Both the position numbers and the translations under genes were made by a program. Below the pieces are notes generated by a model. It was not told the DNA's origin. It ran no database searches and was given only the letters and a program-made list of their open reading frames with translations. A stretch of DNA of 64,000 bases from assembly GCA_947493265.1 (NCBI GenBank), contig CANLQL010000002.1:1-64000 (forward strand), written 5' to 3'. This document shows, in pieces, positions 7,044 through 61,708 of this stretch. The first letter of the stretch is position 1. Every line of letters begins with the position of its first letter. The DNA is from an uncultured Litoreibacter sp. (GTDB lineage Bacteria > Pseudomonadota > Alphaproteobacteria > Rhodobacterales > Rhodobacteraceae).

Positions 7044-7730
7044 ATGCTTAAAAAAATTGTGACCAGCGCGGTGTTCGCTGGTGTGGGAGCGGGCGTGCTT
7101 GCCGCCTTGCTGCAACTTGCGCTTGTGGTGCCGCTTATCATGGAGGCGGAGCTTTTTGAATCAGGTGCGCGTGTGCATTTCCCCGAAGGTGGCTCGCCGC
7201 AATCAGACCGTGGCGCACCGAGTGTCTGGGAAGAGCCTTTGCGCCATATCTACACGGTGGGGTTCTCGGCCGTGACCTTTACGGCTTACGCATTCTTGAT
7301 GATAGCTGGCTTTTTGCTGGCCGAACGGTTTGGTCATGAGGTTACCACGCGTCGCGGCCTTTTCTGGGGTCTGTGCGGCGGTCTTGCGGTCGTGATTGCC
7401 CCTGCCATCAGCATGCCGCCAGAACTGCCCGGGGCCATCGGTGCCGAGGTTGGTCCGCGCCAGGCGTGGTACCTGTCTTGTGTCGTGCTGACCCTGATTG
7501 GGCTCAGTCAGATCGGATTGGGCACACGCGCGCGCTACATGATGACGGCTCCGGTCTTCTTGCTGGCTCCGCATCTGATCGGCGCGCCACATCTTGATAC
7601 CTATTTCGGCGTCGCCCCGCCCGAACTTGCCAGCGAATTTGTGGCACGCGTCATGGGCGTCGCTTTGATTTCTTGGACTTTGTTGGGGCTGTTCGCTGCC
7701 TATTTCTGGACCCGCCCGGAGGAGACATAA
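7044..7730 (+). CDS. cbtA: Cobalt transporter subunit CbtA
   Basis: A 228-residue integral membrane protein with about five to six hydrophobic segments, matching the CbtA family. The first helix follows MLKKIVTSAVFAGVGAG. Conserved family features include ESG and GHEVTTRRGLFWGLCGG. It would form the permease of the CbtAB cobalt uptake system in the inner membrane. It sits between cbtB and cobW with no intergenic gap, and its role fits the riboswitch in front of the operon. Confidence 0.9.
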   Translation: MLKKIVTSAVFAGVGAGVLAALLQLALVVPLIMEAELFESGARVHFPEGGSPQSDRGAPSVWEEPLRHIYTVGFSAVTFTAYAFLMIAGFLLAERFGHEVTTRRGLFWGLCGGLAVVIAPAISMPPELPGAIGAEVGPRQAWYLSCVVLTLIGLSQIGLGTRARYMMTAPVFLLAPHLIGAPHLDTYFGVAPPELASEFVARVMGVALISWTLLGLFAAYFWTRPEET

Positions 7731-8804
7731 ATGCCTGCTAAAATTCCCGCCACCGTTGTTACAGGCTTCTTAGGAGCCGGAAAAACAACCCTGATCCGCC
7801 ATATGCTGCAAAATGCGGAGGGTAAGCGGATTGCGTTGATCATCAACGAGTTCGGCGATCTGGGTGTCGATGGTGACATTCTGAAAGGCTGCGGGGATGA
7901 GACCTGCATGGAAGACGATATCATGGAGCTGTCCAATGGCTGTATCTGCTGCACGGTCGCAGATGATTTCATCCCGACCATGGAAAAGCTGTTGGCCCGC
8001 GAGGACAAGCCCGATCATATCGTGATCGAAACCTCCGGACTGGCACTGCCGCAGCCATTGGTTCGTGCATTCAACTGGCCTGAAATATCAACGCAAGTGA
8101 CCGTCGACGGGGTTGTCACAGTGGTCGATGGCAAGGCTGTCAGCGACGGGCGGTTTGCCCATAACGTTGAAGCGGTTGATGCGCAGCGCAAGCTTGATGA
8201 AAACCTCGATCATGAAATGCCGTTGTCCGAGCTGTTTGAAGATCAGGTGGCCTGCGCCGATATGATCGTCGTCAACAAGTCGGACCTGCTGGGGGAAACG
8301 GAAATAGACACGCTGATGGGAACGCTCAAACAAGACAGCCGGGACGGTGTGCAGGTTGTACGCACGTCCATGGGACGGATGCCGGTTGACGTGCTGCTGG
8401 GCCAAGGCGTCGGTGCCGAGGCTGATCTGGACGCCCGCCACGAGGTCCATCACCACCATCTTGACCACGATGACGATGATCATCATGAGGACGATCACCA
8501 CCACCACCATCATGACCATGATGATTTTCAGAGCTTTGTCGTCACAAGGCCAGAAATTGATGACCCGAAAGCGTTCGCTGAACAGGTCGCCGATGTGATC
8601 CGCACCCATGATATTTTGCGGCTGAAAGGGTTCGCCGCCGTTGAGGGCAAACCAATGCGGTTGACGATACAGGCGGTTGGACCGCGCGTGGATACCTATT
8701 TCGACCGGGTGTTTACAGCTGACGAGACCCGCCAAACACGGCTGGTCGTCATCGGTCAGGCTGGGCTTGATGAGGCGGCAATCACAGCGGCGCTTTTGGC
8801 ATGA
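7731..8804 (+). CDS. cobW: CobW family cobalamin biosynthesis GTPase
   Basis: A 357-residue G3E-family GTPase. Walker A GFLGAGKTT lies at residues 12-20, the metal-binding CxCC motif is in SNGCICCTV, the guanine-specificity motif is NKSD, and a C-terminal CobW domain follows. An exceptionally His/Asp-rich linker at about residues 239-264 probably binds metal. CobW is thought to deliver cobalt to the CobNST chelatase. The start codon follows directly on cbtA, and the end overlaps the GNAT gene by 4 bp, so translation is likely coupled. Confidence 0.93.
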   Translation: MPAKIPATVVTGFLGAGKTTLIRHMLQNAEGKRIALIINEFGDLGVDGDILKGCGDETCMEDDIMELSNGCICCTVADDFIPTMEKLLAREDKPDHIVIETSGLALPQPLVRAFNWPEISTQVTVDGVVTVVDGKAVSDGRFAHNVEAVDAQRKLDENLDHEMPLSELFEDQVACADMIVVNKSDLLGETEIDTLMGTLKQDSRDGVQVVRTSMGRMPVDVLLGQGVGAEADLDARHEVHHHHLDHDDDDHHEDDHHHHHHDHDDFQSFVVTRPEIDDPKAFAEQVADVIRTHDILRLKGFAAVEGKPMRLTIQAVGPRVDTYFDRVFTADETRQTRLVVIGQAGLDEAAITAALLA

Positions 8805-9256
8805 CGCTTCAAGTGCGCAAGGCCGATCCAAAGGAACCCGGGGCAACCGCGCTATTGCAGGCAAGTCACGCGCTGATGACCTCCCTCTATCCGGCTGAGC
8901 ACAATCACTACCTGGAAATTGATGAACTCTGCACGCCAGACATCTCCTTCCTGATTGTCGAAGAAGACGGAGAGGCTTTGGGCTGTGGGGCGATGGCCAA
9001 CAAAGGCACCTATGGCGAATTGAAGTCGATCTTCACCGATCCAAAAGGGCGCGGCAAAGGTGTCGCGGCGCTGATCATGTCAGCCCTCGAAGCGGAAGCG
9101 ACCGCGCAGAACTTGCCTGTGTTGAAGCTGGAAACCGGCGATACGCTGGATGCAGCCCACAGGCTTTACGCCCGGTGTGGCTTCACCATTTGCGAAAAAT
9201 TCGGGGCCTATGATGACGGCCCTCACAGCGTTTTCATGGAAAAGCAGCTGACATGA
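8801..9256 (+). CDS. GNAT family N-acetyltransferase
   Basis: A 151-residue GNAT protein. The acetyl-CoA pyrophosphate-binding motif A is seen as SIFTDPKGRGKGVAALIM, and the C-terminal RLYARCGF motif is typical of the fold. The substrate is unknown. It overlaps cobW by 4 bp and is followed within 12 bp by cobN, so it is cotranscribed with cobalamin genes although the family is not a known corrin-pathway step. It may act on a small molecule or simply ride in the operon. Confidence 0.85.
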   Translation: MTLQVRKADPKEPGATALLQASHALMTSLYPAEHNHYLEIDELCTPDISFLIVEEDGEALGCGAMANKGTYGELKSIFTDPKGRGKGVAALIMSALEAEATAQNLPVLKLETGDTLDAAHRLYARCGFTICEKFGAYDDGPHSVFMEKQLT

Positions 9257-9268
9257 TCGGGCGCTGAG

Positions 9269-12200
9269 ATGCATCTGCTCGCAGCAACGCCGGGTGCGAT
9301 TGATGACGGCAAGGAACCCGTCGATCTGGGCCAGACCCCTGCAGATGTCGTGTTCATCTCAGCCGCCGATACAGAGCTTGCTGCCCTCTCAGCGGCACGT
9401 TCGGAAAGCCCGGAAGGCACATCGCTTCCCAGTTTGCGCCTTGCCAGCCTGATGCATCTGATGCACCCGATGTCAGTCGATTTGCATATCGATGACTGCG
9501 CGGCCCGTTCAAAACTGGTCGTTGCGCGGGTACTAGGTGGGTCCGGCTACTGGAAATACGGGCTGGAGCAATATGCCGCGCGATTGCACGAAGCGGGTGT
9601 GCCCTTCGCCGCGCTTCCGGGGGATGACAAGGACGATCCGGAGCTGCGCGGCTTGTCGACGGTTGCACCTGAAGATTACGACGCCCTGTGGTCATACCTC
9701 GTTGAAGGAGGCCCGCAAAATGCGGCTGGGCTCCTGGAATATTGCCAGGCAATGCTTGAGGGGGGAGAGAAGCCGCAAGCGGCCAGTCCCTTGCTGCGGG
9801 CCGGGCTTTACTGGCCCGGCAGCGGTGTAGCTGATCTTGAAACGTTGCGTGAGCATTGGACCGATGGCGCGCCGGTCGTCCCGCTGGTCTTCTACCGCGC
9901 GCTAGTCCAAGGCGCGGGCTTGCACCCGATCAACCGCCTGGTCAAAGCAGTTTTGCGTGAAGGCCTGAACCCGATGCCCATATTTGTGGCATCGCTCAAG
10001 GATGCGGTCAGCCAGGCGACGCTGGCGCGCCTGTTTGGCGCAGCTCCGCCCGATGTGATCCTGAACATGACCTCTTTTGCCGTGGGCTCCCCCCATAGCG
10101 ACGATCCGGAAGCGCAAAACCCGCTGGCCGCCGCGACCGCCAATGCCGCGCCGGTTTTTCAGGTGGTCTTGGCCTCCTCCACAGAACAGGCGTGGGACGA
10201 AGGGGCCACTGGTCTATCTGCGCGCGATATCGCGATGAATGTCGCCCTGCCAGAGGTCGATGGCCGCATCCTCAGCCGCGCAGTCAGCTTCAAGGGAGAA
10301 GCGTTCTTTGACGAGGCGACGCAATGCCCGATTGCCACCTATCGCGCACGCGGCGACCGGATCAGTTTTGTCGCTTCCCTTGCCGCCAATTGGGCGCGCC
10401 TGCGCAAAACTGAGGTCAAGGCTCGCAAAGTTGCACTGATCCTGGCAAATTACCCCAACAAAGACGGCCGACTTGCGAACGGGGTCGGTCTCGACACGCC
10501 AGCGGCCACGGTTCATGTGATGGACCTTTTGAAAAACGCAGGATTTGCATGCAGTGTTCCGGATGATGCCAAATCCTTGATGGACCAGATCATGGCCGGG
10601 CCGACCAATTGGCTGACAGATCGCGCCGAGACCGAGGGCGGGGAAATCCTGACCCTTGAAGACTACAAAGCGGCCTATGCCAAATTGCCCTATGACGTGC
10701 GCGCGCAAATCGAAGACCGCTGGGGTCCTCCCGAGAATGACCCATTCTTCTTGGCAAAAATACCTACTCCCACAGAGGCAAACGGCGCAGGTTTCAAGCT
10801 TTCCGTGCATCGTTTCGGACATGTAGTTGTGGGACTGCAACCCGCGCGCGGCTATAATATTGATCCGACCGAGACGTATCATTCCCCCGACCTCGTCCCG
10901 CCCCACAACTATCTGGCGTTCTATTTCTGGCTGCGGCATGCATTTGGGGCGCATGCGTTGGTCCATATGGGCAAACATGGCAATCTGGAATGGCTGCCCG
11001 GCAAGGCGCTGGCGCTCAGCGAGGCATGTCTGCCCGAAGCGGTGATGGGGCCCATGCCCCATATCTATCCGTTTATCGTTAACGATCCCGGCGAAGGCAC
11101 GCAGGCCAAGCGGCGCGCGCAGGCTGTGATTATCGACCATTTGACCCCGCCGCTGACACGCGCGGAAACCTATGGACCGCTGCGCGATCTCGAAGCGCTG
11201 GTTGATGAATATTACGAGGCCGCGGGTGTTGATCCCAGGCGCATCGATCTGCTGCGAAAAGAAATCCTCAGCCTGTCCGCGACAACTGGCCTGACCGAAG
11301 ATATCGGCATGACAGGGGCGGATGCTGACGGCGATCTGGCCAAGCTGGATGCATATCTGTGTGAGTTGAAAGAGGCGCAGATCCGGGACGGGTTGCACGT
11401 GTTCGGACAGTCCCCAAAGGATGATCTGGAACGCGACCTGGCGATAGCGCTGGTGCGGGTGCCGCGCGGTGACGGCAAGGGAGGTGATGCGTCGCTGATC
11501 CGCGCGCTGGCGCGTGATTGCGGCATCGGGCCGGAATTTGACCCGCTGGATTGCGACATGGCTGCTCCTTGGGACGGGCCGAGGCATAAGTTTCTGCAGG
11601 CTGCTGGTGGAGAAGATGATGTCTGGCGCAGCTGTGGTGATACGGTTGAGCGGTTGGAAAAACTGGCGCAATTGGCGCTTCAATGGTCAGAGACCCCTCA
11701 ATATTTCACCCATACCGCCGCGGTGCTGGAAGAAATACATGCACGCGTCCTACCGGCAGTCAGATCCTGTGGTCCGTCCGAGGGGGCGGGGCTTCTCACC
11801 GCCCTGTCAGGGCAATTCGTCGCCCCGGCACCTTCCGGTGCGCCGACCCGTGGGCGCTTGGATGTTCTGCCGACGGGGCGAAATTTCTATTCGGTCGACA
11901 GCCGTGCAGTCCCCACGCCAACTGCTTGGACCTTGGGTTGGAAATCTGCCAACCTCTTGATCGAAAAGCACCTGCAGACCCATGGTGACTGGCCGCGCAC
12001 CATGCTTTTGACCGCTTGGGGCACGGCAAATATGCGCACAGGTGGTGATGACATCGCGCAATGTCTTGCCCTGATGGGTGTTAAGCCGAAATGGGACAGC
12101 GCAAACCGCCGCGTCACCGGGTTTGAGATCTTGCCGCAGGGGGTTTTGGGGCGTCCACGCGTTGACGTCACTTTGCGCATATCCGGGTTCTTCCGTGATG

Positions 12201-54392: not shown

Positions 54393-55025
54393 ATGACGCC
54401 TGAACAAATCTCCCGCTTCTTTACCCGGTCTGATGGCAGCTATCTGTTTGCCCGCTGGGGTCGCCCGATTGCCCCGGTTGTGTTCGGGGTGGAGGATCAG
54501 ACAATCTCTGTGCTGAAAGGCGCGCTGGAGGCTGTCGCGACACTTACTGGGCACGAAATCGCGGAAACTGATCCCGAGCTTGGCGCGAACTTCATGGTGT
54601 TTTTCATCCGCGATTGGCAGGAGTTGGTCGAAACCCCAAACCTGGACCGCATGATCCCCGAATTGGAGCCGTTGGTGGCCCGCTTGCAAGCCGCAGACGC
54701 CAATCAATACCGAATTTTCCGGTTTGATCCCGAAGGGGGCATAAAAGCCTGTTTCGTGTTCCTGAAAATGGACGAGGTGATGATGGAAATCCCGGCAGAT
54801 ACGCTGTGTCTGGGTCAGGTTGTACAGTCATTTCTGCTTTGGTCGGACGAGGCGTTTTTAGGGGCTTCGCCCTTGGCTTTGACGGGCAAGGATGTGGCCA
54901 TCCTCAGACCCGATGTCGCCGCGATTATCCGGGCAGGGTATGATGGGGTGATGCCGGTTTGCGCGGATGATCCCAGTCATGCACTGCGCTTGTCTGCGCG
55001 TGTTTCCGGGATGCTGGACAGCTAG
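54393..55025 (+). CDS. Conserved hypothetical protein downstream of ruvB
   Basis: A 210-residue soluble protein with mixed alpha/beta composition. Segments such as GRPIAPVVFGVEDQTISVLKG, ANFMVFFIRDWQEL and GGIKACFVFLKMDEVM have no catalytic signature I recognise. It has no signal peptide or membrane helix. It begins 41 bp after ruvB and probably belongs to that transcription unit. The imperfect inverted repeat that follows may end the unit. Confidence 0.78.
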   Translation: MTPEQISRFFTRSDGSYLFARWGRPIAPVVFGVEDQTISVLKGALEAVATLTGHEIAETDPELGANFMVFFIRDWQELVETPNLDRMIPELEPLVARLQAADANQYRIFRFDPEGGIKACFVFLKMDEVMMEIPADTLCLGQVVQSFLLWSDEAFLGASPLALTGKDVAILRPDVAAIIRAGYDGVMPVCADDPSHALRLSARVSGMLDS

Positions 55026-55129: not shown

Positions 55130-56341
55130 TCAGGCCTTCACAGGCTCGATACGCGACGCCCAGCCGCTGATAACTTCTTCACAGGTCTTGCGACCCCACC
55201 GTTTGCTTAGCAGTGCAGATAGCGGTGTGGCGATTGACCAAGGCAATTCAATCGGACCGGTGCTCAACCAATGCAACAGCGCAGTCTCAATGGTCTCGAC
55301 ATCGCCTTGATTGAAGGCTTCACGGACTTCCTGAACGCTGGCGTCGCTGGCCATGCACAAGCGGTCTGCCAATTGGTTTTGAACCGTCTGTAGCCGCTTC
55401 AGGCCCAACGCGTAGGCGCGTTCTGTGACGCCTGTTTCAAACCCTTCGGGCACGTTCATCGTCAGCGTCCTGTCTTCACTGTCATCTGCAAGGTGATCTT
55501 GCGACAGTTGATCAAGCCGGGTGCCGATCTCGCCGATCAGGGCCGGGACCTCCTGTGCTTTCAGCGATGGCATCGCGCGTTTGGCACGTTTCCAGGCTTG
55601 CAGCTCGCTGGTATCAGGGCGCAGTGCTGCGAGGCTGGATTTCGACCGACGCGCGATCTCCTGGGAGAAGCGGTGGTTCAACAGCATATTCGCGTCTTCG
55701 CAAAGGTGCGTCTCGTTGTGCCATTCTTCGGGGCATTGCCCGATATCGGACAGTTCCACGTAGCCCAGCTGCGAATGAAACGCGCGTTCCAGAGCAAGCT
55801 CCGCGAAGCAGCGGTTGAAGTGATAGATGATCCATTTGCGTGCCACGGCACGATCAGCCGCGGTGGACAGGCCCGCCTTGGTCAGCGCACGATCAATCCA
55901 GAACTCCCGCTTGAGAAAGGCGTTTGAAAACCCGTGCAGGATGATCTGCAATTTGGGATTGGCGCTGTGCAAGGCCAGCAGGAAGACACGGTAGTCATCA
56001 ACGATCCGGTTCAGACCGGCCCAGAAGGACGCGCCCAGAATACGGCTGATCGGATCACCGGGCTCGACGCTATCGAGCATCTGACCCAATTTTGGTCCCT
56101 CAAACATGCCGCAACCCGTGGCAGAGATGACGGCGAAATCAAAAGACTTCGCGGCCTCGATATGGGGCACAATCACCGCGTTGCCGTCGCTGAACCATTC
56201 CGGTTGCAGCGCAAGGACGCCATATTGGGCCTCCAGCCATTCGGTGGTGTCCCGCAGCTGCGCCGAAACCGTTCCAGCGCCGCGCGGTGTGTCATAGGGG
56301 CGGCCAAAAGCGCCCTTTGAGTTTTCAATGTAATCCAGCAT
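55130..56341 (-). CDS. Uncharacterised protein, possible degenerate SGNH-hydrolase fold
   Basis: About 403 residues from the ATG at MLDYIENSKG; GAGGGA lies eight bases upstream. A stretch resembling the central and C-terminal blocks of SGNH hydrolases is seen: NPKLQIILHGFSNAF, then GYVELSDIGQCPEEWHNETH followed by an HRFSQEIARR helix. The family's nucleophile motif (GDS) was not found, so catalysis is doubtful. The last 150 residues look helical. No signal peptide is seen. It lies downstream of the protease gene on the same strand, with a CtrA box in the spacer, so it may have its own promoter. Confidence 0.5.
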   Translation of the reverse strand: MLDYIENSKGAFGRPYDTPRGAGTVSAQLRDTTEWLEAQYGVLALQPEWFSDGNAVIVPHIEAAKSFDFAVISATGCGMFEGPKLGQMLDSVEPGDPISRILGASFWAGLNRIVDDYRVFLLALHSANPKLQIILHGFSNAFLKREFWIDRALTKAGLSTAADRAVARKWIIYHFNRCFAELALERAFHSQLGYVELSDIGQCPEEWHNETHLCEDANMLLNHRFSQEIARRSKSSLAALRPDTSELQAWKRAKRAMPSLKAQEVPALIGEIGTRLDQLSQDHLADDSEDRTLTMNVPEGFETGVTERAYALGLKRLQTVQNQLADRLCMASDASVQEVREAFNQGDVETIETALLHWLSTGPIELPWSIATPLSALLSKRWGRKTCEEVISGWASRIEPVKA

Positions 56342-56750
56342 CAGATCAATTCCCTCAGATTGCTGCGATTGAAATTCTGTGCGCAGAGGGCGGGCGCAGT
56401 CGGACCGAGTGGTGCGTAGGCACACTCTTTAAACAACGGGAAAAACCACCCGGTCCGTTTGCGAAGCATTGCTGACAATCCAGCCCCCTCACGTTGGGTC
56501 GAATACTCTTGAAAAAAACACGCGTTCATTTTCGACCCTCACCTTGTTGAGTTGGGCGGAATGCCGAACTCGTTAACGCTAGGTTAATTTCGGCCGCGTG
56601 AAAGAAGTGTGAATGAGCAAGGACTCGCTCAGGAGGAAAGCGTGAAAACTGCGCTTGAGGTCAGATTTTCTTGAAAAATATAGGGGAAAGCGCGTAAGTG
56701 TTTCCCCGTAAGCGACAAACCGCCAGCCCTGAAGCTGACGGCTGATTTGC
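56342..56750. other. Spacer in the accessory block, with CtrA box and possible mini-ORFs
   Basis: A 409-bp spacer without a normal gene. It contains a full CtrA box (56573-56587). On the plus strand there are two 10-codon frames linked by a shared GTGA, the second (GTG at 56642) after a strong AGGAGG. There are no recognisable transposon ends. Confidence 0.5.
56573..56587. promoter_or_regulatory. CtrA-binding site (TTAA-N7-TTAA)
   Basis: TTAACGCTAGGTTAA matches the CtrA consensus exactly. It lies 232 bp upstream of the SGNH-like gene on the minus strand, inside the accessory block. Confidence 0.6.
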
Positions 56751-58796
56751 TTATCGTTGCGATTCTAAATCGCGGCTTGGTCGGGACAAATCGCCATGTC
56801 CAAGACGTAGGATATCATGGTTCCCATCGAAAGGTGGGATGTCCTGCGGATGCAGGGTTTTGGGGTCCAGCGCGGTCCCCTGGAAGGCCTGCATCATCGC
56901 CCGTGACACTTGCGGTGCGGACACGCTGGTGCCGTTCATCGGCAAAACTGACCCGCTGCGGGATCCGCTGGACAAGATGCCCCCGATCACGCGCGATCTG
57001 TCACTGACAGCAGAATAGTCCGGATCCCGCATCCCCTTTGACGAAGAGGCCGCGTAGTAAGACGGGTTCTCGTCGCGATAGGTCACACCGCCCACCACCG
57101 TAATCCGCTCGCTGGTGGCCATCCCGTTCAGGGTTCCGCGCCGTTTGATCACGCTGGGGCCTGTGTCTTCCTGGTTGATGAACCCTTCGGGCGTATAGCG
57201 CTCGTAGGTGGCATCGTTGAAATAGGATTGCAGCCCGGGGCGCGAAAAGCCCAACGGGGCGTCGTCGCGAGGGATCCAGGCGTTGATCTCACCACCGTTC
57301 AGACGGGCCACGATTTGAACGTGCCACAAACCATTTGGTCCGGGCTTGCGATTTGTACTCGAAGGCATCGCACTGGGCGACAGCGCGATCAACACGCGTT
57401 TCTTTTCGGCTGCGGCAGGTGTCATGCCCTGCAAATCCACGCTGACGCGGGCCAAAACATCACCGGTTGCGTCATCGACCAGCAACATCGCTTGCCTGCG
57501 ATCCAGATCAGGAAGCGCGATTGGTGTGCCCCCGGGCCAGGCCACCGATAACGTGATGTCCTTGGTATCTTCCGGCACCCATATTTCGCAAAAGTTGGGC
57601 GTCAGATCTTCTGGCTGAACCCGCCAGGGTAGGTTTAGCTCAGTCATTGCGCCGACGACAGCGGGTGCATTGGCATGACCGCGCGCCAGATATCGATTGC
57701 CAGTCGGCAGAACAACTTGCACGCCAAATCGGGGCGGTACATCGTCAAATTTCTTCTCGATCCGCTCTATATGCGCGGCGACAAGCGTGTCGATTGCCGT
57801 TTCGATGATCGATGTGCCGTCATGGGGGCCGCCCGCGATCGCATAGCTGAAGTTCAGCACAACCGGGATCGGGAAGTTTTCGACCACAGACATCTCGTAG
57901 GCATGATCCAACATGCGCCCGATGCCTGCGACCACAAATGGGGCCAGCCGCGCGCCAGAAGTTTCAACGGTAACCAGTTCGGGCAGTTGCACCGCCATAA
58001 TCCGGCAATTGCGTGCCGCTTCCTCGCCGGTTTCAGGGTCAAAACCCGCGGCTGTATCCAGCACATGGGTGCCGTGGGACAATTGCCGCGCAAGGGACCA
58101 TGATCCGGGGCGCGTGAAATCCAGAAGGCCCAACGCCTGCAGGCGATCATCTTCGCTGAGCGCACTGTTGAGCAGGCCCTCAAGCTCCGCCTTGTCATGT
58201 TCGCGCCCGAAAACGACGGGCTCGGTCGCGCCGCGTGACACGCCATCCTGCACCCAGGCGAAATCGATCCGCGAGGTCACGCCCGTGGCGGTGTTCTGGG
58301 TAAAGCGCGCGTTGACGAGGTTGAAGTTGTTGTCGATGACACCAACAATGACCCCTGTTTTCGGATCCAGCCCCTGGGCCGAATAGCTCACGGTCGCGGG
58401 TTTCTTTTTGCCGATGGAATAGCTGCGCAGCGGGGCAGGGTAGCGCATCACCTGATAGCTGGCGCTGGCCTCATCTTCCGCGACCTCAGTGTCGGGTGTC
58501 AGGCACAAAGCAACTTCCGTGGACCGCACAACCCCTTCCTGATCCCGCTCGAAAGTTGAGCTGCTGATTTGTGGTTCAATAACCGGAATTTCATCCAAAG
58601 GTGCTTGCGCAGCGCCCGGTTTCACAGACACCTCCGTGTTTCGCAAAACCACCTGATAGGTGAAATCCTTGGGGTTTGTGATGGTTTGGGTATCCCGCAG
58701 GGAAAACCCGTCGCTGTAATTTAGGGCCCAAACCGAATAGGGGTCATAGCCCCGCCGCGGTCGGTTGGCCTCCTTCACCCAGGAAAAGCTTGGCAT
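56751..58796 (-). CDS. S8 family (subtilisin-like) serine protease
   Basis: A 681-residue subtilase with a complete triad: Asp155 (VIVGVIDNNFNL), His241 (QLSHGTHVLDTAAG) and Ser624 (MNGTSVSAPQVSRAM). The oxyanion asparagine is in LPTGNRYLARG. About 150 residues precede the Asp. No signal peptide or membrane segment is present, so export, if any, is unconventional. The ATG shares one base with the stop of the PAP2-fold gene and has GGAG nine bases upstream, indicating coupling. A longer in-frame start (58823) adds nine residues. A long insert of about 230 residues lies between Asn and Ser. Confidence 0.9.
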   Translation of the reverse strand: MPSFSWVKEANRPRRGYDPYSVWALNYSDGFSLRDTQTITNPKDFTYQVVLRNTEVSVKPGAAQAPLDEIPVIEPQISSSTFERDQEGVVRSTEVALCLTPDTEVAEDEASASYQVMRYPAPLRSYSIGKKKPATVSYSAQGLDPKTGVIVGVIDNNFNLVNARFTQNTATGVTSRIDFAWVQDGVSRGATEPVVFGREHDKAELEGLLNSALSEDDRLQALGLLDFTRPGSWSLARQLSHGTHVLDTAAGFDPETGEEAARNCRIMAVQLPELVTVETSGARLAPFVVAGIGRMLDHAYEMSVVENFPIPVVLNFSYAIAGGPHDGTSIIETAIDTLVAAHIERIEKKFDDVPPRFGVQVVLPTGNRYLARGHANAPAVVGAMTELNLPWRVQPEDLTPNFCEIWVPEDTKDITLSVAWPGGTPIALPDLDRRQAMLLVDDATGDVLARVSVDLQGMTPAAAEKKRVLIALSPSAMPSSTNRKPGPNGLWHVQIVARLNGGEINAWIPRDDAPLGFSRPGLQSYFNDATYERYTPEGFINQEDTGPSVIKRRGTLNGMATSERITVVGGVTYRDENPSYYAASSSKGMRDPDYSAVSDRSRVIGGILSSGSRSGSVLPMNGTSVSAPQVSRAMMQAFQGTALDPKTLHPQDIPPFDGNHDILRLGHGDLSRPSRDLESQR

Positions 58797-59989
58797 CAGA
58801 CATTGCTCCAGCTTGTCTTCCATTCGTCACGGGCCTTGTTCCAAAGCCAGTTGAGCAGATCAGAAGCCTGGATATTGCCGGTAATATCCGCCCCGACTTT
58901 GATGATGTCATTCCCATCGACGTTAAAGTCGATCAGCGTGGAGCCGTCGAAAGCGTCCTTTTGAAGGAAATCGGTCGCACCGATGCCTTCGCCGTTGAAG
59001 CTAGCTTGATGAACCGTTTGGCCTGCCGCGCCACAACGTGCACAGAAATAGGCCCCCATCGTCGCCCCCAAAGTGGCCCCAGCGAAAGTGTCTGCCGGGA
59101 AGTGCACGCCCGCGACAGTGCGGTTCACCGCAATCCGCGTCGCTTGAGCCATCAACAGCCGCTCCAGCCCGTCATATTCGATTTTGCCGTCCAGCAATGT
59201 CAGCAACAGGCGTGAGACGATATAAGCTTCCGTCGCATGGGCCGAGGGCAGGGCCCCGTGGCCCGGTGTCGGGATCATCGGCTGGATTTGGCCGGAATAG
59301 ACATCCGGGCGCAGGACGGCCAACGCGTTTTTGGCCTGCATGGCCACACTGGAGGCAAATAGCTGCGCCAGTGAGACAAGCTGGATCGTGTGCTTGTTGC
59401 GGGCAGGATGCAGCCCGATGATGGAGCTGAAGAACGGGGTCGGGAACCCAACCTGGTTCAGGATTTCCCCGGCCCGGTCTGGCCGCAGATCCGCGTAATT
59501 GTAGACCACTTGCGTTTGTGCGACGAAATCATCGTCTGTCGGGCGCACAAGATCGACGACCGGATGATAAGCCGCCGTCGGTGCCGTTGTGGCGTCGCCG
59601 CCTGTTGTGGACAGATGAAACAGGCCGACCGCATTGGAATTTTCCACGGCGAACGTGCCCACATGGGACAAAAGCTCTGTCTGCAGGATCAGTGCACGCA
59701 CCCAAGGGGACCATTCGCTCATATTGGCGACATCGCCCGAGGTCATCGGGTTCGGTTTCTTGGTTAACGGCGTCCAGGCTTCGACCAGACCATCCCGGTT
59801 TGTCATCAAGGAGGCCGCAAGAGACGGCGTTACACTGCCTGCTCCGCCGCCGACACCGCCAACGCCTCCCACGCCGCCGACACCTCCGACGCCACCAACA
59901 CCGCCGACGCCGCCGACACCACCAACGCCACCGACACCGCCAACGCCTCCAACGCCGCCGACACCGCCTGAAATGGAAGAAATTGACAT
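58796..59989 (-). CDS. PAP2/vanadium-haloperoxidase-fold protein with Gly-Gly-Val repeat N-terminus
   Basis: A 397-residue protein. Residues 8-46 are 13 exact GGV tripeptides, followed by GGGAGS. Residues about 200-310 carry the three PAP2/haloperoxidase motifs: K220-x6-R227-P, PSAH (248-251) and R290-x5-H296-x3-D300 (NRTVAGVHFPAD). These bind phosphate or vanadate in acid phosphatases and vanadium haloperoxidases; which reaction applies cannot be told. The C-terminus has LIDFNVDGNDIIKVGADITG. No signal peptide is seen. AGGAG lies seven bases before the ATG. It is between the regulator gene (24-bp gap) and the coupled protease. Confidence 0.85.
   Translation of the reverse strand: MSISSISGGVGGVGGVGGVGGVGGVGGVGGVGGVGGVGGVGGVGGVGGGAGSVTPSLAASLMTNRDGLVEAWTPLTKKPNPMTSGDVANMSEWSPWVRALILQTELLSHVGTFAVENSNAVGLFHLSTTGGDATTAPTAAYHPVVDLVRPTDDDFVAQTQVVYNYADLRPDRAGEILNQVGFPTPFFSSIIGLHPARNKHTIQLVSLAQLFASSVAMQAKNALAVLRPDVYSGQIQPMIPTPGHGALPSAHATEAYIVSRLLLTLLDGKIEYDGLERLLMAQATRIAVNRTVAGVHFPADTFAGATLGATMGAYFCARCGAAGQTVHQASFNGEGIGATDFLQKDAFDGSTLIDFNVDGNDIIKVGADITGNIQASDLLNWLWNKARDEWKTSWSNV
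59852..59968. repeat. Tandem 9-bp repeat (13 units) encoding Gly-Gly-Val
   Basis: Thirteen contiguous 9-bp units, read on the minus strand as Gly-Gly-Val, differ from one another almost only at third codon positions (GGC, GGT and GGA; GTC, GTT and GTG). Synonymous drift with an unchanged tripeptide indicates selection on the protein sequence. The plus strand would read as Thr-Pro-Pro repeats, which is a shadow. Confidence 0.95.
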
Positions 59990-60013
59990 GTGATTACTCC
60001 TGTTTGAAACGCG

Positions 60014-61708
60014 TTAAGATTTTGGAATTCCTGCGGCCTCCAAGGCGTCGGCCCAGGATTTGCCTGTGTTGAAATGTGCTGCTGGATGCTGGCTGAGATA
60101 ATTTGAAACGGTCAGGCCGGGCTCCTTGCGCATCAGCTCCTGCGCGGATGCACGAGCTTCCTCGGTTCTGCCAAGTCTCTGCAAAGCAACGGTTTTTGCC
60201 CGGATGGTTGATGTATGGCGCGCGTTCAGGGTCAGCGAACGTTCCGCGAAGAACAAAGCGTCTTCGTTTTCATCGTTGGACAGGCTGGCCGCGGCTGACA
60301 ATGTGTCAAAGAAATAACGGTGCGGATCAAGCGGCGACAATTTCCGGGCCCGGCTGGTAAATTGCACGGCCTTTTCGCCGTCATCCGTGAAGGCATGAAG
60401 CGCGCCTTTCAACAGCCAAGCCAGCGCGCAGTTCGGATCGTTTTCAACCGCTTCTTCGTAACGGTCCATCGCGGTGTCGACGCGGCGCAACAGGTTGTTG
60501 TTCACAAAGCCATCAATAGCCATGGAGAACGAACAGTCGGACGCCAAATCCAATGCACGCGCGGACAGGTCGGATGCGATGCGACCGTCAGCGCTGGCAT
60601 CCTGGCTCCAGCCTTGCACGACGCACAGGACATGCCATTTGGCCATCCAGCTTTGCAAGATGGAGTTGCGTGGGAAGCGTTCGATCAGTTCCTGAAGGTA
60701 GACGCGCGCGGTTGCAAAGCTGGCCTTACTTTGCCGGTGCATCAGCGACACAGCCGAGATCAGCAATGTATGGCTTTCCAGATCACCAACCTGCTTGAGA
60801 CGTGCGGCCTTGGCGGATTTTGCGATGATGCCGCGGGATAGCTCGTCACCGATGGCCAGCACCAGTTGATCGTCACCGGCCAGAAAACCGCGCTGACTGC
60901 CGGTGATGTCTTGCGTTGCCTCGATCCTTCCGGTGGAGGAATCCACAAGATCCATCTGGACGCGGATCTTGTCGCCCTCATGGCGGAAGCGGCCCCAGGC
61001 CACATAGTCAGCCGCGATCAGAGACCGAATTTCAGAGATATCGACGCTGCGCGGGTCGATGTTGCGGCATGACAAGTGCGAGATCACGTTCAGCAGCTCT
61101 GATCGGGACAGCAGCCGAGAGACTTCTTCGGCCAGCATGTCCCCGATGGGCTGCAATTCGGCAGCCCCGGGCGGGGCCACAAGCGGCAGTACCGCAACGG
61201 TAGGCTGCAGCTGGTCGTCGGTATGGACCACGACCGGGGCCACATCTTGTTGCAGTGTTTGCGGCACTGTCGCAATGCCCGCAATCATCACGTCAGGACG
61301 TTGCCGCTGTTCGCGCAGCCAGTCCTCAAATCCTTCTTCGGCGATGTCGATCCCCTCCAAAAACGCCCCTTCGGACGCGCTGCCAAGCACGCAGACGAAA
61401 TCGGGTCTCAGAGTAATGTCAGTGTTTGTGGCTTCAAAGATTGCATCGAAACGTTCGCCAAACAGCATCCGCAGATCGGCCACAGCGCGGCGTAAACTGG
61501 CGCGCCCGTGGGTCGGGCCGGACCGGGACCATAGCGCATCCTGCAACCAGGCGCGCGTGCGACGACCTTCCGGGGCCGTTGCCAGCATCGCCAGCAAAGC
61601 CCGTTGTTTGGCACTGCTAATACGGATGTCTTCCCCAGATGCCCAGCCTAGCGAAAAGGCTCCAAATAGCCGGATATGCAGCGTCACTTTGTGATCCCCA
61701 CGCAACAT
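60014..61708 (-). CDS. AfsR/SARP-like transcriptional regulator with TPR region
   Basis: A 564-residue regulator. Residues about 8-105 form an OmpR/SARP-type winged helix (HIRLFGAFSL, QRALLAMLA, ASLRRAVADLRMLFG). Residues about 165-310 resemble the TolB-N-like segment found in CyaB-type regulators (TVAVLPLV, IGDMLAEEVSRLLSR, DYVAWGRFRHEGDKIRVQM). The remainder is helical TPR-like repeats (NCALAWLLKGALHAF). No membrane helix is seen. AGGAGGG precedes the ATG. It leads the PAP2 and protease genes and probably controls them. The signal is unknown. Confidence 0.85.
   Translation of the reverse strand: MLRGDHKVTLHIRLFGAFSLGWASGEDIRISSAKQRALLAMLATAPEGRRTRAWLQDALWSRSGPTHGRASLRRAVADLRMLFGERFDAIFEATNTDITLRPDFVCVLGSASEGAFLEGIDIAEEGFEDWLREQRQRPDVMIAGIATVPQTLQQDVAPVVVHTDDQLQPTVAVLPLVAPPGAAELQPIGDMLAEEVSRLLSRSELLNVISHLSCRNIDPRSVDISEIRSLIAADYVAWGRFRHEGDKIRVQMDLVDSSTGRIEATQDITGSQRGFLAGDDQLVLAIGDELSRGIIAKSAKAARLKQVGDLESHTLLISAVSLMHRQSKASFATARVYLQELIERFPRNSILQSWMAKWHVLCVVQGWSQDASADGRIASDLSARALDLASDCSFSMAIDGFVNNNLLRRVDTAMDRYEEAVENDPNCALAWLLKGALHAFTDDGEKAVQFTSRARKLSPLDPHRYFFDTLSAAASLSNDENEDALFFAERSLTLNARHTSTIRAKTVALQRLGRTEEARASAQELMRKEPGLTVSNYLSQHPAAHFNTGKSWADALEAAGIPKS

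Follow-up and report, generated by a model that had tools for sequence, protein, structure and literature searches.

A tandem-repeat tail on a PAP2-fold enzyme covaries with the TPR domain of its neighbouring regulator in a widespread three-gene module

Bacterial receptors of the RRNPPA group (Rap, Rgg, NprR, PlcR, PrgX and AimR) combine a peptide-binding groove built of 5-9 tetratricopeptide repeats (TPR) with an N-terminal output domain of the HTH or Rap type. In the cited part of one account, the peptide-coding sequence of Bacillales lies just downstream of the receptor gene (PMC9765709), and the cited part of another describes some Phr-type propeptides as holding repeated copies of the peptide (PMC11343458). 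A second related case is artificial: designed proteins pair a repeat protein with a homogeneous tripeptide repeat of four to six units by superhelical matching, as far as the cited part goes (PMC10115654). Here we analyze a locus that resembles both, located in a 64,000-nucleotide stretch of DNA from an uncultured Litoreibacter sp. of the Rhodobacteraceae (contig CANLQL010000002.1, positions 1 to 64,000; hereafter the window). It consists of a regulator with C-terminal TPR repeats (REG), an enzyme of the PAP2/acid-phosphatase fold with a tandem tripeptide tract near its N-terminus, and a subtilase of family S8 (S8). REG resembles the RRNPPA receptors in having TPRs and an N-terminal output domain, and the module likewise has a repeated peptide sequence encoded next to the putative receptor. 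In contrast to RRNPPA systems, the module occurs in Proteobacteria, its output domain is a winged helix or a cyclase, a protease gene belongs to the same module, and the repeat units are mostly three residues long and present in 3 to 20 copies. Moreover, the repeat is not part of a small exported propeptide, being fused to an enzyme of ~350 residues with no evident export signal. The designed binders differ in that they are man-made, whereas the pairing considered here is proposed from covariation. Among the openly licensed PMC papers that our searches listed, none described the module or a natural pair of tripeptide repeat and TPR protein.

The three genes form a widespread module. When loci from the family of the window were fetched using the enzyme alone, REG and S8 adjoined it in 40/40 cases. 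A scan of GTDB genomes with two core peptide patterns, from which the best 80 loci were kept, returned all three genes in 78/80, the remaining two (L088 and L150) being cut by contig ends. These best 80 loci came from Rhodobacterales, Hyphomicrobiales, Kiloniella, Nisaea, Burkholderiales and Chromatiales, and included single metagenome-assembled genomes labelled Planctomycetaceae and Anaerolineae. After pooling and removal of duplicates, 171 enzymes were obtained, 157 of them in loci longer than 7 kb. Within these longer loci S8 adjoins the enzyme in 157/157 and REG in 156/157, with one 7.6-kb locus as the exception; S8 lies on the same strand as the enzyme in 134/157 and on the opposite strand in 23/157, and REG on the same strand in 100/156. 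A previous sequence-only reading of the window had proposed a functional module of four genes, to be checked by their co-occurrence. A functional module is strongly supported for REG, the enzyme and S8, which stand together at almost all loci retrieved via the enzyme, whereas the fourth candidate, a gene read as SGNH-like, was found in 0/40 module loci of the family. A universal fourth gene was sought among the neighbours of 147 loci and rejected, as the best neighbour families were present in only 8-10/147, one of them probably being an antisense open reading frame (ORF).

The S8 profile matched 100/394 genomes of the family at E 1e-10, and eight of the weaker matches had no enzyme alongside upon inspection. 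At a threshold of 1e-30, the enzyme matched 12/385 genomes of the class and 19/398 of the phylum, some of the matches being partial. Plasmid records gave 35 matches, of which 21 were from Phaeobacter; where annotations were present they named a winged helix-turn-helix protein, a PAP2 phosphatase and an S8 peptidase (12/13 Phaeobacter records fetched). On a plasmid of Phaeobacter inhibens M647 (L257), all three proteins are annotated in shortened form, and the tract is still contained in the enzyme gene.

The enzyme of the window (397 aa; 58796..59989, minus strand) belongs to the PAP2 superfamily, matching Pfam PF01569 at 3.9e-11 and 43.3 bits against a gathering score of 27.2. Its K-x6-RP, PSAH and R-x5-H-x3-D residues correspond to the catalytic pattern K-x6-RP / PSxH / R-x5-H-x3-D, which was invariant in 32 aligned sequences. 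The structure model reached a pLDDT of at least 90 for 314/397 residues, fell below 50 for aa 1-50, and gave the PAP2/acid-phosphatase fold as its match. Compared to class A acid phosphatases and other PAP2 proteins, the enzyme has ~180 extra residues and the repeat tail, and it is without an evident signal peptide; no secretion signal was evident by eye. Structural similarity to the vanadium-dependent haloperoxidases, which bind vanadate and oxidize halides and to which the enzyme may or may not belong, appeared lower, and the enzyme is shorter than those matched.

Its tract, (GGV)13.7 at aa 8-48 (59846..59968, minus strand), comprises the 13 GGV units that had been seen in the window before. 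A tract score of at least 9 was found in 168/171 enzymes, as opposed to 15/2042 of the remaining ORFs (>=200 aa) in these loci, where at least one of the 15 is the same tract read in another frame. The three enzymes below this score are L058, with an interrupted AAF tract, L150, which starts at the contig end, and L216, an open frame lacking the tract with a stop inside the gene. L058 was retained when units, periods and codon differences were counted, so that these counts cover 169 tracts. The period is 3 residues in 147 of them, 4 in 16, 6 in 3, 2 in 2 and 5 in 1. With rotations collapsed there are 94 different units, which together use all amino acids except cysteine (examples are GGV, GGA, GVT, GGF, AGI, SAY, GWT, NAY, LQS, NAE, TPH, GYD, NSF and TAM). 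The tract starts at a median of 7 residues past the first start codon.

Copies within a tract differ almost exclusively at silent positions. Comparing unit to unit, the codons of the window's tract showed 140 synonymous and 0 other differences, and all 169 tracts gave 14164 synonymous versus 131 other. Since one third of single changes in Gly, Ala and Val codons are silent, neutral drift would produce about two replacements per silent change. The ratio is biased by the detection of tracts through amino-acid periodicity; as nearly every homologue has a tract, this bias is too small to explain 14164:131. The codon differences indicate that selection keeps the copies within a tract alike. A neutral minisatellite linker, homogenized by replication slippage, would fit the whole-unit changes in copy number observed between Phaeobacter strains and species and also between other close species. 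It is hard to reconcile with differences that hardly ever touch the residue and with a tract kept in 168/171 homologues. In addition, 4-fold sites of the tract differed as much as those of the enzyme core or more in 19/27 close pairs with a value, so that the tract DNA has not been freshly copied. We therefore regard such a linker as highly improbable. Identical adjacent DNA units were not avoided either (61/1394 observed, 69.2 expected).

While copies within a tract stay alike, the unit itself changes between lineages. The same unit was shared by 88/9142 enzyme pairs at 30-40% core identity, by 15/23 at 80-90% and by 5/7 above 90%. Whole-tract switches were found between close relatives, such as GGV to GGI in Microvirga at 91% core identity with 12.7 copies each, GGI versus GGV in Roseibium/Labrenzia at 92%, SGF versus SGL between Yoonia and Roseobacter CCS2 at 90%, and SGV versus TGL in Kiloniella at 89%. 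In the 13 Phaeobacter plasmid records fetched, out of 21, the unit NSF was constant and its copy number varied from 4 to 6. From the Phaeobacter and close-pair data it follows that whole-unit copy changes occur within a genus and unit changes between species. Homogeneous units of free sequence would also be expected if the tails of several enzyme copies packed against each other, and 60/75 distinct tripeptide units contain at least two of G/A/S/N/T. Units with polar or charged residues or with proline nevertheless exist (TSD, LEG, RAQ, TPH), and homotypic packing predicts no covariation with REG, which makes this explanation very unlikely given the data on REG described below.

REG (564 aa; 60014..61708, minus strand) is composed of a winged-helix output domain, a middle part and C-terminal TPR repeats, and its gene is separated from that of the enzyme by 24 bases. 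Pfam recognizes TPR at aa 407-462 and, weakly, Trans_reg_C at aa 32-85 (E 0.0064). Among 36 relatives, 14 matched a cyclase domain, 6 Trans_reg_C, 6 FlgO and 29 TPR_2. The output domain is thus a winged helix of the Trans_reg_C type or a class III cyclase, and the middle part is FlgO/TolB-like in some relatives. Regulators of the SARP/AfsR type consist of a winged helix and a BTAD domain; REG shows the weak Trans_reg_C match along with weak AfsR-type matches, and no BTAD match in Pfam.

Covariation between the repeat unit and the three proteins was analyzed in 154/171 enzymes with a tract score of at least 9 and both neighbours present and scoring above 150. These were split by REG identity to the window into clade I (95 loci) and clade II (59 loci). 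When 14 close pairs with a switched unit were compared to 21 unswitched ones, REG showed an excess of changes that was concentrated in aa 361-564, where ratios reached 1.5-2.2 as against 0.67-1.23 in its other windows; S8 windows ranged from 0.5 to 1.04. With the divergence of all three proteins removed, REG aa 401-440 showed a positive partial correlation with unit similarity in 8/8 analyses and aa 441-480 in 7/8, the eighth being about zero; some windows of S8 and the enzyme were also positive. Both segments fall into the TPR stretch at aa 397-512 (60173..60520, minus strand), whose helix-A positions covary with the unit. Position REG401, a phenylalanine in the window (codon 60506-60508, minus strand), ranked first among the 1177 columns from the three proteins in the codirectional set by soft similarity (r +0.50), and took first place, singly or shared, in both tests on the full set of 154 loci. 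REG columns 401/469, 405/439/473 and 470/504, each of which ranked high in at least one test, are spaced by multiples of 34, the length of one TPR, and fall on helix A in a register set by W431, G435, A454 and P459 and the TPR consensus.

By eye, position 401 is Phe where the unit has the form GGX, Leu or Met where it is A/S/T-G-X, and Gln, His or Asn with many units containing Asn or an aromatic residue. In clade I, F401 was present with 41/44 GG units and with 9/51 others, and REG401 had the highest mutual information with the GG trait of 1216 columns. On a tree built from the enzyme core and S8 without REG, parsimony counted 16 changes each for GG unit and F401, and a Pagel test of the two gave a likelihood ratio of 50.8 (p 2.5e-10, post hoc). 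Among the 34 positions of the TPR, 8, 12 and 9 ranked highest. A set of positions 5, 8, 9 and 12 (aa 397-498), which like the GG trait was picked after looking at clade I, was then significant in clade II (59 loci, 55 of them with divergent REG) at p 8.9e-5 for exact units and 0.0025 for soft similarity. With units simulated 1000 times on the trees, the set lay about five standard deviations out in either clade, at the floor of p 0.001, and REG401 had p 0.001 in clade I and 0.005 in clade II; the mean number of same-unit pairs in the simulations was 135 versus 166 seen in clade I and 28 versus 17 in clade II. For the traits 'aromatic', 'has A' and 'aliphatic', the lowest p was 0.0025, in tests over many columns. 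Residues at REG 473 are smaller where units are aromatic, and columns 473, 504 and 469 recur for this trait, but REG552 was ranked first.

The 3' end of REG is unlikely to have hitchhiked with the adjacent tract, since REG aa 521-560, which lie beside the tract in clade I, gave negative partial correlations in the sets holding clade I, and since REG is divergent from the enzyme in 55/59 clade II loci, where it is mostly the 5' end of the gene that faces the tract. The covariation argument is carried by these segment and column tests. Whole-protein tests gave mixed results: REG was favoured when all loci were taken, the nearest-neighbour comparison was null, and in the divergent set the signal came from S8. 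In a naive pair test, whose pairs are non-independent, the result was in favour of REG (p 0.0004) and in the opposite direction for S8.

From these data we infer a three-component regulatory module in which the TPR solenoid of REG binds the repeat tail of the enzyme and the subtilase acts on that tail, a reading to which we give about an even chance. The PAP2-fold enzyme would carry a disordered N-terminal tail of identical short units, held by the REG solenoid such that successive units run along the helix-A faces of successive TPRs. REG would relay the tail's condition to its own output domain, resulting in DNA binding by the winged helix or, in some relatives, in formation of a cyclic nucleotide by the cyclase, and S8 would most likely trim or release the tail and thereby switch the complex. 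Any unit would suffice provided that all copies fit the groove, so that unit and groove could drift together. Homogeneity and tolerance of copy number would be explained because every register of a repeat ligand is equal. That designed repeat proteins bind tripeptide repeats with one unit per repeat, according to the part of the work cited (PMC10115654), suggests by analogy that a polyproline II tripeptide repeat against a helical-repeat protein is physically sound. More tentatively, and in our view with rather less than an even chance, the tract may constitute a lineage-specific identity code that is read by the solenoid through superhelical matching and has drifted together with it through dozens of units.

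Several observations weigh against tail binding by REG. Of 65 cases in which the nearest relative by REG was compared to that by enzyme for sharing of the unit, REG won 2, the enzyme 5, and 58 were tied. In the divergent set, the soft whole-protein test gave r 0.336 for S8 and -0.051 for REG, and S8 supplied 20 of the top 25 columns, with REG401 absent. Column 48 of the enzyme (W96) exceeded REG401 in the codirectional exact test (+0.20 vs +0.19), 16/1216 columns distributed over all three proteins, including enzyme columns 134 and 48, reached the floor p for the GG trait, and two windows of the enzyme core had ratios of 1.8-1.9 in the close pairs, where the raw REG excess furthermore runs to the very end of the protein. 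The textbook groove positions 2, 5, 9, 12 and 13 performed more weakly (p 0.12, 0.016 or 0.008, depending on the stretch). F401 also occurs with GAF (6), TGW, SIA/SGA and one GAY, and three GG units are without it. Finally, 22/169 tracts have units of 2, 4, 5 or 6 residues, and the groove residues are unlike from TPR to TPR. The repeat may be met by S8 too.

The S8 gene (681 aa; 56751..58796, minus strand) has an ATG that overlaps the enzyme stop by one base (TGATG), as the sequence-only reading had also seen. Its product is a subtilase with an intact triad: D164, H250, the oxyanion residue N376 and S633 were invariant in 22 aligned sequences. The window protein scores slightly under the Pfam cutoff (19.6 vs 21.8), and 29/37 sequences match at E <=0.001. 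The Csp germination subtilases (CspA/B/C) were the best match to S8 by both profile (CspB, 3.6e-18) and Foldseek comparison of the model (CspB, TMt 0.73, E 5e-24). S8 keeps the catalytic residues and differs from the Csp proteases in that its partner is a PAP2 enzyme. No spore system is known in the hosts of the module. A tripeptidyl-peptidase-like activity of S8 was considered and is weakened by the units of lengths other than three; TPP II was not among the 50 Foldseek matches listed, which by itself proves nothing.

By analogy to the Csp fold, action of the protease on its partner enzyme is plausible. In one scenario, S8 would remove the tract as a pro-segment and thereby activate the PAP2 enzyme, with REG acting only in transcription. 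The Csp match and the overlap of the two genes speak for such a zymogen, and CspB itself acts on a precursor, pro-SleC. A pro-segment accounts neither for homogeneous units nor for covariation with the REG TPRs, and S8 is encoded on the other strand in 23/157 loci; we consider it improbable.

Alternatively, S8 could cut the tract into identical tripeptides that serve as the ligand of the REG TPRs, the enzyme being carrier or target of a multi-copy peptide signal, comparable to the RRNPPA systems of Firmicutes that have duplicated pheromones. The gene order of receptor, peptide-coding stretch and subtilase, together with a TPR receptor with an N-terminal output domain, is in line with this scheme, and the covariation of REG with the unit fits it equally. 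As precedents, the sections cited place the Bacillales pheromone just downstream of its receptor (PMC9765709), report Phr propeptides with up to 8 copies and cite a title in which CSF production is ascribed to subtilisin, Epr and Vpr (PMC11343458). S8 columns also follow the unit in the divergent clade. When tested against simulated units, however, the S8 substrate cleft, which we placed by eye from subtilisin, showed a weak signal in clade II (p 0.016) and none in clade I (p 0.72). Furthermore, the tail has no secretion signal evident by eye, and no transporter gene was widely conserved among the neighbour families of 147 loci, the commonest of which, ABC-ATPase-like by look, was near the module in 10/147. 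A peptide signal thus appears rather unlikely to us.

Turning to the surroundings of the module, the sequence-only reading was right that four minus-strand ORFs separate ruvCAB and its linked gene from ybgC and the tolQR-like genes in the window. Its further expectation that ruvB and ybgC usually lie close together was matched by 17/29 ruvB loci of relatives, where the distance was <=1.3 kb, and the block is therefore probably an addition at the ruv-tol site. The gene after ruvB (54393-55025) has weak similarity to DUF2927 and was matched in 23/29 of these loci. The ruv-tol linkage itself was rejected as functional context, with ruv present in only 1/40 module stretches of up to 18 kb. A role in defence, which had also been suggested, found no support, with PADLOC matching 0/4 of the proteins and a phage collection yielding no match; what was found is a widespread three-gene module and no oxidation or defence island at ruv-tol. 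The 431-aa gene at the far end of the block (55130..56425, minus strand), SGNH-like by the previous assignment, lies outside the module. It is rare, with matches in 2/198 family genomes, one being the window's own, and together with its absence from the 40 module loci this rules it out as a fourth member. A second copy, 29% identical, is present on another contig (C3) of the same genome.

Some hosts carry additional genes at the module. An animal-type haem peroxidase (PF03098) adjoins it in four loci (L032:3592-5169, L045:4022-5848, L234:5222-7000 and L224:1112-2884), and 4/6 candidates scanned matched Pfam; distant relatives were seen in L085, L062, L080, L081 and L034, with L080 and L081 giving no Pfam match. 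This neighbour may be a hint of oxidative chemistry in some hosts. An uncharacterized protein of ~500 aa adjoins the module in nine loci, in most of which S8 is encoded on the opposite strand (L170:4452-6140, L218:1844-3454, L174:2679-4157 and six more), and the three members scanned (L170, L218 and L071) had no Pfam match. One genome (L065, G190:C42) contains two modules near each other, with (GS)n and (SAY)n tracts. L160 has a single ORF (7598-9541) that scores as S8 and whose start resembles the REG winged helix; an enzyme was not seen nearby, the contig ending shortly after.

If the proposed interactions hold and S8 releases the repeat, the module would represent a Gram-negative peptide-repeat signalling system that is parallel to RRNPPA and not descended from it. 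It would likewise offer a natural case of a repeat protein and a repeat peptide co-evolving unit by unit, and its 171 homologues with 94 units would provide a data set for how TPR grooves choose their peptides and for the design of peptide binders. The module also makes it testable why the copies of a motif stay identical while the motif changes between sister species. In the family of the window, about one genome in four (100/394) would thereby gain a type of regulation if the reading is right.

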